DNA from: Amycolatopsis alkalitolerans
GTDB taxonomy: Bacteria; Actinomycetota; Actinomycetes; Mycobacteriales; Pseudonocardiaceae
DNA length: 64,000 nt
Direction: 5' to 3'
Assembly (NCBI RefSeq): GCF_006152065.1
Contig: NZ_VDFW01000035.1
Span: 1-64,000, forward strand
Notes under the pieces: model-generated
What the model saw: the letters and a program-made list of their open reading frames with translations, nothing else
Databases searched by the model: none
What the model was told of the DNA's origin: nothing
Made by a program: the position numbers and the translations under genes
Shown: in pieces, positions 36,708 through 37,827 of the stretch
Position numbering within the stretch: position 1 is the first letter of the stretch
Layout of the letters: each line of letters opens with the position of its first letter

Positions 36708-36713
36708 TAAAGT
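36708..36713 (+). promoter_or_regulatory. -10 element of the trpS transcript
   Basis: TAAAGT lies six bases before the leader-peptide ATG, so transcription probably starts at or next to that ATG and the leader peptide is translated from a leaderless message. No good -35 is seen. Confidence 0.5.
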
Positions 36714-36719
36714 AGCGGT

Positions 36720-36764
36720 ATGCGCAGCTTTGCAGGACTGTGGTGGCCGCCCTCGGGCGGCTGA
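36720..36764 (+). CDS. Tryptophan attenuator leader peptide (14 aa)
   Basis: ATG to TGA encodes MRSFAGLWWPPSGG with two adjacent TGG codons (36741-36746). The Trp codons lie immediately before the 5' arm of the first attenuator hairpin and the stop lies just after its 3' arm. This is the classic design of a ribosome-sensed leader peptide. Its only purpose should be to report tryptophanyl-tRNA supply for the TrpRS gene downstream. Confidence 0.9.
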   Translation: MRSFAGLWWPPSGG

Positions 36765-36815
36765 CCGCTGTGCGCTGACACAGATACCAGGGCCGCCCTC
36801 GTGGGCGGCCTTTTT
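36746..36815 (+). promoter_or_regulatory. Ribosome-mediated transcription attenuator of trpS
   Basis: Four segments can be read directly: 1 GCCGCC (36746-36751), 2 GGGCGGC (36755-36761), 3 GGCCGCCC (36791-36798), 4 GGGCGGCC (36803-36810) followed by TTTTT (36811-36815). 3:4 is a perfect 8-bp intrinsic terminator. Segment 2 is also perfectly complementary to 3 (7 bp), giving an antiterminator, and 1:2 pair over 6 bp. A ribosome stalled on the Trp codons would cover 1 and free 2 to pair with 3, switching trpS on when charged tRNA-Trp is scarce. Confidence 0.92.
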
Positions 36816-36864
36816 CGTGCTCGAAGGTCTCCCCGCGGTCGGCACGAACGACGGGGAACACGAC

Positions 36865-37827
36865 ATGAGACTGTCCGGCATCACGCCCTCGGGCCACGCC
36901 CAGCTCGGCAACCACCTCGGCGCGATCGCGCGCTGGGCCGCCGACGGTGCACCCGAGGATCTCTACTTCGTCTCGGATCTGCACGCGATGACCACGACGC
37001 ACAATCCCGCCGGGCTGCGCGGGCGGGCCGGTGAACTGCTCGCCGTACTGATCGCCAGCGGAATCCCGGCGGAACGCGTTTTCGTCCAATCCGATCTCGC
37101 GCGCGAACTGGGCGCGCTGACCTGGGTGCTCGAATGCACCTGCAGCTACGGCGAGGCCGCGCGGATGATCCAGTTCAAGGAGAAGGCGGGCGGCCAGCAC
37201 GGGGTGCGGCTGAGCCTGCTGACCTATCCCGTGCTGATGGCCGCGGACATCCTGCTGCAGGGCGCGGACGAGGTGCCGGTCGGGCAGGACCAGAGCCAGC
37301 ACGTCGAACTGGCGCGGGCGCTCGCGAGGCGGTTCAACTCGACCTACGGCGAGGTGTTCACGATCCCGGAGCCGGTGCTGCCGGTGACCGGCGCCCGCGT
37401 GCGCGACCTGGCGGACCCGACGCGGAAGATGTCCAAATCCACCCGCGACTCCGCGGGGGTGGTGTTCGTGCTCGACGAACCCACGCTGATCCGCCGGAAG
37501 ATCCGCCGCGCGGTGACGGACGCGCAGCCGGCCCCGGCCTACGACCCGGAGACACGGCCAGGGGTGTCGAACCTGCTGGAGATCCTCGGCGCCTGCACGG
37601 GAACGACGCCACAGGAGGTGGCCGCGGAGTACACGTCGTACGGCGCGCTGAAGGAAGCGGTCGCGGCCGCGGTGATCGAGACGCTCCGGCCGGTCCGCGA
37701 GCACACGCTCGCGCTGCTTTCGGACCCGGCGGAGCTGGACCGGGTGCGCAAGGCCGGCGCGGTCCGGGCGGCCGAACGCGGTGAGCACCGGGTCAACGCC
37801 GCGCTGCGGTTGATCGGAGCCGGCTAG
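36865..37827 (+). CDS. trpS: Tryptophanyl-tRNA synthetase, probably the inducible auxiliary type
   Basis: The 320-aa class I enzyme charges tRNA-Trp. The HIGH-region equivalent is TPSGHAQLGNHLGA, the tryptophan pocket region includes LLTYPVLMAADILLQGADEVPVGQDQ and the KMSKS loop is RKMSKSTRDS. ATG 36865 has GGGGA seven bases upstream; upstream codons in this frame run through the attenuator and are not real. In Streptomyces an antibiotic (indolmycin)-resistant second TrpRS is controlled by just such an attenuator, so I infer the same kind here; resistance cannot be read from sequence with certainty. Confidence 0.93.
   Translation: MRLSGITPSGHAQLGNHLGAIARWAADGAPEDLYFVSDLHAMTTTHNPAGLRGRAGELLAVLIASGIPAERVFVQSDLARELGALTWVLECTCSYGEAARMIQFKEKAGGQHGVRLSLLTYPVLMAADILLQGADEVPVGQDQSQHVELARALARRFNSTYGEVFTIPEPVLPVTGARVRDLADPTRKMSKSTRDSAGVVFVLDEPTLIRRKIRRAVTDAQPAPAYDPETRPGVSNLLEILGACTGTTPQEVAAEYTSYGALKEAVAAAVIETLRPVREHTLALLSDPAELDRVRKAGAVRAAERGEHRVNAALRLIGAG

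Follow-up and report, generated by a model that had tools for sequence, protein, structure and literature searches.

A candidate tryptophan attenuator with a long-range 5′-end helix precedes an auxiliary tryptophanyl-tRNA synthetase gene in Amycolatopsis alkalitolerans

Analysis of a 64,000-nucleotide stretch of the genome of the soil actinomycete Amycolatopsis alkalitolerans (contig NZ_VDFW01000035.1, positions 1 to 64,000; referred to here as the window) points to a ribosome-mediated transcription attenuator controlling trpS, a gene for an auxiliary tryptophanyl-tRNA synthetase (TrpRS). The element begins with a short leader peptide gene containing tandem Trp codons, and a long-range RNA helix, P0, acting together with a leader hairpin, 1:2, would lock it by default in the OFF state. 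We put the probability of this reading at roughly 0.87. It follows from the presence of the leader at nearly all of the auxiliary trpS loci sampled and at none of the housekeeping ones, and from calculations in which the antiterminator folds only with a stalled ribosome. The circuit itself is already known from Streptomyces, and the window element belongs to that kind; P0 is apparently an undescribed part of it.

The leader peptide gene and the attenuator RNA

All features described here lie on the forward strand. A −10 box, TAAAGT (36708–36713), was read from the sequence six bases upstream of an ATG at 36720, and transcription from this leader promoter would be expected to start at, or adjoining, that ATG. 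The leader peptide gene, predicted to be leaderless, spans 36720–36764 including the stop codon TGA at 36762–36764, and encodes the peptide MRSFAGLWWPPSGG in 14 codons (ATG CGC AGC TTT GCA GGA CTG TGG TGG CCG CCC TCG GGC GGC TGA, stop included). Codons 8 and 9 (36741–36746) are the tandem Trp codons, which a scan of stall positions and the comparison of leaders mark as the sensor codons.

Four segments can pair in alternative ways. Segment 1 (GCCGCC, 36746–36751) forms hairpin 1:2 with GGCGGC (36756–36761). Segment 2 (GGGCGGC, 36755–36761), the partner of segment 1 or 3, can pair instead with GCCGCCC (36792–36798) to give the antiterminator helix, 2:3. Segment 3 (GGCCGCCC, 36791–36798) can pair in turn with GGGCGGCC (36803–36810) of segment 4, which with its tail TTTTT (36811–36815) occupies 36803–36815, the 3:4 helix being a putative intrinsic terminator. 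A small hairpin, CUGUG/CACAG (36768–36783), appears within the antiterminator loop in the fold computed with a stalled ribosome and is an alternative to P0. Further downstream, a ribosome-binding-site-like GGGGA (36853–36857) was recognised by eye seven bases 5′ of the trpS ATG at 36865. The original prediction, made by a model from the sequence alone, had described a 14-codon leader with adjacent Trp codons, four pairing segments with exact 2:3 and 3:4 complementarity, a T5 tail and a trpS gene with its own ribosome site. All of these are present in the sequence, with coordinates and complementarity as claimed; P0 had been missed.

The pattern of promoter, start codon and tandem Trp codons occurs once across both strands of the window and in 7 of 20,000 order-1 Markov sequences modelled on the same region, and the attenuator RNA is more stable than 199 of 200 shuffles (z −2.97). 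GC-rich DNA folds readily, and between 36000 and 38500 no Rfam match reaches its gathering score, Trp_leader (RF00513) scoring 21.7 bits against 41; both facts would suit a chance open reading frame (ORF) with accompanying hairpins. The rarity of the pattern in random sequences and the contrast between auxiliary and housekeeping loci described below refute that explanation, to which we attach practically no weight. The three sub-threshold Rfam matches in this interval were taken as chance or as remote Trp_leader likeness. A T-box was considered and rejected, none being among these three matches at E values up to 1.

Conservation of the leader

For comparison, 150 genomes were sampled from the family Pseudonocardiaceae, all of which gave a TrpRS match. 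The 81 places with E ≤ 2.6e-91 were taken as the auxiliary group, and nine weaker-scoring family places together with the second trpS of the A. alkalitolerans genome as ten housekeeping controls. A start codon with TAnnnT 6–8 nucleotides upstream, followed by in-frame Trp codons, was found at 78 of the 81 auxiliary loci and at 0 of the 10 housekeeping loci. A 35-codon ORF with two adjacent Trp codons upstream of one housekeeping gene (L088) was rejected on the promoter and position criterion. Counts on 78 loci leave out L047, L056 and L059, where no start codon with a −10 box was found, and include L031, whose terminator the automatic search had missed and which was entered manually.

The search pattern itself required a first Trp, which falls at codon 8 in 53 of the 78 leaders (range 6–12); a second Trp follows directly in 69, whereas 7 have Arg and 2 have Gln there. 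The stop codon lies 12, 21, 24, 27, 36 or 39 nucleotides from the first Trp in 13, 3, 30, 7, 17 and 8 loci, respectively (L003–L083), and so falls before, at or after segment 2. Across the 78 rows of the helix alignment, 91.5% of cells are paired in 1:2 and 96.4% in 3:4; for 2:3 the figure is 99.3%. The original prediction had named relatives lacking the Trp codons or the pairing as evidence that would overturn it; the relatives sampled carry the leader at the frequency given above, and the pairing is kept.

A second search covered named genomes, from which the best 80 of 573 relatives were used. This set overlaps the 150-genome sample, and its leader criterion was laxer in that a single Trp was accepted. 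The leader was present at 39 of 39 named relatives (L093–L131). Of 41 more distant loci in the same best 80 (L132–L172), 28 had a leader, 12 had none and one was dropped; the carriers include Streptosporangium, Actinomadura, Nonomuraea, Dactylosporangium, Paractinoplanes and Nocardia. The dropped one, an apparent leader in Caldicoprobacter (L165), was judged spurious.

Effect of ribosome position on folding

Folding was computed on the transcript as segment 3 has just emerged, and the probability of the antiterminator helix, P(2:3), was compared between ribosome positions. Without a ribosome, P(2:3) averages 0.07 and exceeds 0.5 in 4 of the 78 loci. A ribosome placed on the first Trp codon raises the mean to 0.89, and all 78 loci pass this mark, whereas one at the stop codon gives 0.05 (3 of 78). 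The predicted outcome at the stop is unchanged in 75 of 78 loci, across all placements of the stop relative to segment 2.

When the stall position was scanned, mean P(2:3) reached 0.80–0.88 for A-site positions from two codons before the first Trp to one codon after it (−2 to +1), and did not exceed 0.31 at any other offset shown. The Trp codons thus lie inside a narrow stretch where stalling switches the structure. For the window leader, P(2:3) is 0.99 with the stall at Trp8 and 0.73 with it at Trp9. In silico, then, the antiterminator, which is exclusive of the terminator, is favoured only by a ribosome stalled around the Trp codons.

A long-range helix at the 5′ end

The helix P0 would form between UGCGCAGC (36721–36728), which overlaps the start codon, and GCUGUGCG (36767–36774), which lies in the spacer separating the terminator from segment 2. 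The evidence for it comes from covariation and from a permutation test across 27 genera, in which the first 14 nucleotides of each leader were paired either with their own spacer or with spacers permuted among genera. Own pairs average −13.56 kcal/mol and permuted pairs −10.60 kcal/mol (standard deviation 0.37), giving z −7.9. The same permutation gave no signal for the rest of the leader against the spacer (z −0.1), for the leader start against the stretch past the terminator (z 0.6) or the stretch before the promoter (z 0.5), or for the 14 nucleotides before the start codon against the spacer (z 0.1). The best duplex of the first 14 nucleotides includes the start codon in 78 of 78 loci, and four of the five P0 pairs aligned automatically vary on both sides. 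This genus-level test with its controls replaced an earlier cross-pairing of 77 loci ungrouped by genus, in which the contrast had been weaker (−15.0 versus −12.5). Outside the family the contrast recurs in 20 named loci of other families (p 2e-4; 23 loci minus three from Pseudonocardiaceae, one of which, L148, is identical to L081) and in 26 class-level loci (p 9e-4), many of which are near-identical and some of which precede trpE-like genes.

The pairing signal sets in with the start codon and is absent upstream of it, which is independent support for a leaderless transcript. Together with the promoter spacing kept at 78 of the 81 loci, it gives comparative backing to the earlier claim that the leader is translated without an untranslated region, and a leaderless start, with transcription beginning at or beside the ATG, is supported by these comparisons. 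A −35 element with at least four of six letters is found at 30 of the 78 family loci, against 9.8% in shuffles.

Since P0 crosses 2:3, the two cannot coexist as nested helices. Blocking the first 14 nucleotides raises mean P(2:3) from 0.07 to 0.16; in the window the rise is from 0.03 to 0.23, and the predicted optimum flips to the antiterminator. On these grounds, covariation on the one hand and predicted folds on the other, we read P0 as a second anti-antiterminator that would open once a ribosome occupies the 5′ end. Attenuation might be real and P0 nevertheless have no regulatory part, being produced by codon use (a Met-Arg start) and by a spacer motif with some other job, for instance as a pause or factor site. 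Codon 2 is indeed Arg in 55 of the 78 leaders, and several of them end their coding sequence in the spacer motif, GTGCGCTGA. However, both strands change together between genera and the neighbouring regions do not, and the motif is kept also where, as at the window locus, the stop codon precedes it. We consider a non-regulatory P0 unlikely.

Proposed mechanism

The sequence, its conservation, the covariation of P0 and the thermodynamic feasibility of the alternative folds are observed, and from them we infer the following course of events. RNA polymerase would start at the leader ATG, and a ribosome would load straight onto the 5′ end. With charged tRNA-Trp plentiful, the ribosome would pass both Trp codons and reach the stop; with segment 2 either beneath the ribosome or sequestered in 1:2, the 3:4 terminator would form. 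With charged tRNA-Trp scarce, whether through Trp starvation or through inhibition of the housekeeping TrpRS, either of which may be the physiological inducer, the ribosome would stall at codons 8–9. It would then cover segment 1 and the first bases of the transcript, leaving 2 to pair with 3, and readthrough into trpS would follow. Where no ribosome has loaded, the 5′ end would pair with the spacer, and because P0 crosses the 2:3 antiterminator, P0 plus 1:2 would lock the default OFF state.

Several observations weigh against this mechanism. The promoter–start pattern is missing at three of the 81 loci (those left out of the counts). A generic scanner reported neither a sigma-70 promoter nor a terminator between 36400 and 37000, and the best −35 match at the window promoter has one of six letters; these results speak against the promoter being strong and the terminator being of the textbook type. 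The scanner perhaps missed the terminator because an extended stem may absorb two of the five T, which is a guess. On the automatic alignment, RNAalifold predicted the terminator and a weak helix involving the Trp codons only, with neither P0 nor 1:2 as drawn, and the named helices and the permutation test were used in place of its output. In that alignment only 77.2% of the P0 cells are standard pairs, and the computed effect of P0, as given above, is small on average. The folding calculations assume a fixed ribosome footprint and equilibrium energies. Finally, a stall at Gly6 or Leu7 in the window also gives a P(2:3) of 0.99, equal to that at Trp8 and above that at Trp9.

The terminator itself also varies, tails such as TTCGT and TGACG replacing T5 in many relatives, so that termination there may be weak or Rho-assisted. 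Downstream of trpL2 in Streptomyces lividans, a U-rich stretch is reported to be absent (PMC8079986). Both points would suit a leader working mainly via translation or Rho and not through an intrinsic terminator. Against this stand the T5 of the window, the pairing of 3:4 in 96.4% of cells and the position of the trpS start, 49 nucleotides beyond the T tail and outside the helices considered; we judge such a mode of action distinctly improbable and retain transcription attenuation at the 3:4 terminator.

On balance we lean towards a wider statement, that in leaderless actinomycete attenuators generally the spacer sequesters the start codon and the rest of the extreme 5′ end shortly before RNA polymerase makes the terminator. 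Such capture would set a time limit on ribosome loading, a late ribosome finding the start codon gone, and antitermination would need a ribosome that arrives in time and is also starved. The position of Trp at codon 8 would likewise be explained, a single ribosome there spanning segment 1 as well as the 5′ end, and the hairpin that shields the start codon in ilvBNC, left unexplained there (see below), would gain a function.

Relation to known attenuators

A candidate attenuator at trpS2 of Streptomyces avermitilis was predicted in 2005 (PMC1262725), and the trpL2-trpS leader of S. lividans has been seen by RNA-seq and called leaderless (PMC8079986). Like the window element, these auxiliary trpS attenuators have a Trp-codon leader, hairpins and a TrpRS gene downstream (PMC1262725, PMC8079986), and trpL2 is leaderless (PMC8079986), as the window leader is predicted to be. 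Unlike them, the window has an Amycolatopsis-type leader, WWPPSGG, with a T5 terminator. The available parts of these two papers (PMC1262725, PMC8079986) do not mention P0 for Streptomyces, yet it is present in Streptomyces-like loci. The trp operon attenuators of Streptomyces and Corynebacterium share the logic and a GGCC-type complementary triple (PMC1262725), but the window element precedes trpS.

In the three-hairpin model of Corynebacterium glutamicum ilvBNC, the leader begins right at the 5′ end and its landing site is masked by an anti-antiterminator; the authors call the role of this start-shielding hairpin unclear (PMC11857589). The ilvBNC attenuator responds to other amino acids and poses the same puzzle as P0, a hidden leader start. 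Its comparative data could not separate the hairpins (PMC11857589), whereas P0 covaries and shares no strands with the antiterminator helix.

In the open literature searched, which does not extend to most subscription papers (Vecchione and Sello 2010 among them), no paper on this attenuator in Amycolatopsis or the Pseudonocardiaceae was found, nor any description of P0. Vecchione and Sello 2010 reportedly deals with the attenuator of trpRS1 in Streptomyces coelicolor. The present comparison places the circuit at 78 of 81 sampled auxiliary TrpRS loci of Pseudonocardiaceae and in other actinomycete families, and P0 offers a concrete and testable answer to two questions, how an attenuator can be linked to a leaderless leader that lacks a ribosome-binding site, and why the start codon of that leader is masked.

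The auxiliary synthetase

The auxiliary trpS gene (36865–37827) encodes a 320-residue TrpRS with SGITPSG and KMSKS signatures, which matches TIGR00233 over residues 2–320 with 234.5 bits (cut-off 176.75). A second trpS elsewhere in the genome had been predicted, and TIGR00233 does find two, the window gene and a better-scoring one on contig 26 (G000:C26). In a tree of 104 TrpRS rows, with a midpoint root for drawing only, the ten housekeeping rows form one group (100/99), and the window enzyme lies on the opposite side (99/94) together with enzymes of family f21. On that side the auxiliary rows of Pseudonocardiaceae fall in two groups, of 26 and 2, the smaller of which also contains rows from Streptosporangium, Actinomadura and Nocardia. 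By this tree the window enzyme is a second TrpRS, apart from the housekeeping one. The leader of f21, MTTRTCTQLWWAA, resembles S. lividans TrpL2, MMTRTCTQLWRAA (PMC8079986), and from this likeness we assign f21 to Streptomyces; on this assignment the Streptomyces auxiliary enzymes share the tree side of the window enzyme.

No leader with adjacent Trp codons was found upstream of the housekeeping trpS of this genome. In the roughly 470 nucleotides upstream of its trpE (G000:C9:67288, L210) there is likewise no such leader ORF, and no significant match to the covariance model; in the whole genome this model gives one match at E 1.3e-12, the next being at 0.08. With no leader and no significant model match before trpE, the attenuator of the spare trpS is the single one for Trp found in this genome. 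Matches to typA and nudix stand beside trpS at 30 of 30 and 28 of 30 family loci, respectively, and each at 37 of 39 named relatives, against 0 of 41 more distant ones; with this conserved typA–trpS–nudix neighbourhood the locus looks vertically inherited within the family. As a separate observation, the TrpRS of Micromonospora okii (L136) is nested in the Pseudonocardiaceae auxiliary group, and no leader was found upstream of its gene, possibly a case of gene transfer without the switch.

Kitabatake 2002 reportedly found that Lys at the position equivalent to residue 9 decides indolmycin resistance. All ten housekeeping enzymes tested have Gln here. In the family auxiliary enzymes (80 readable of 81, L073 being unreadable at this position) it is Thr in 70, Gln in 7, Arg in 2 and Lys in 1, and in 19 class-level enzymes it is Lys in 15, Gln in 3 and Arg in 1. 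The window enzyme has Thr at residue 9, unlike most Streptomyces-like enzymes with their Lys. In Bacillus stearothermophilus TrpRS, the change H43N gives resistance (PMC4899734), and alignment shows that the implicated His is kept in the window enzyme. The original prediction had raised the possibility of an inhibitor-tolerant enzyme and proposed an alignment of active-site residues as a check; the alignment lends it no support, with Thr in place of Lys and the sensitivity His retained. From the sequence, inhibitor tolerance of the window TrpRS is plausible.

Beside the question of mechanism, the circuit may serve mainly resistance to inhibitors of the indolmycin or chuangxinmycin type and not Trp limitation. 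Auxiliary TrpRS of Streptomyces is indolmycin-resistant (PMC9437257, PMC6804068), the Streptomyces-like enzymes share the side of the tree on which the window enzyme lies, and position 9 departs from the housekeeping Gln in 73 of the 80 readable family members. Conversely, it is Thr and not Lys that the window enzyme carries there, seven family members keep Gln, the sensitivity His is retained, and the conserved typA–trpS–nudix neighbourhood is no antibiotic cluster. We regard a resistance role as evenly balanced between these arguments. A leader-based reporter would reveal which spare synthetases answer to TrpRS inhibitors.

Other occurrences of the attenuator

The covariance model matches in 92 of the 150 family genomes and in 123 of 394 class genomes. 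Of 30 loci fetched from the class search, three are from the family and one of the 30 is the window itself. TrpRS lies downstream in 21, and trpE-like ORFs were recognised by eye in nine; the sole one of these that was run, L222, gave a chorismate-binding match in Pfam.

Seven loci (L173, L215–L218, L230 and L231), belonging to two other genera of Pseudonocardiaceae, have the same attenuator before a different TrpRS, 31–36% identical and with the signature TGDRPTG. Occurrence before two unlike synthetases indicates that the switch became associated with a TrpRS on more than one occasion. At L219 (G058:C7), a leader-like stretch with tandem Trp codons and hairpin 1:2 has a weak model match (E 5.6e-4) and no TrpRS match downstream; it is perhaps a remnant. 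In three further Pseudonocardiaceae genomes (L224, L226 and L227; model E 2.9e-5 to 9.5e-5), a three-Trp leader with like hairpins starts 159–270 nucleotides 5′ of an amino-acid permease ORF (PF00324 in both of those tested), which suggests a Trp-attenuated permease.
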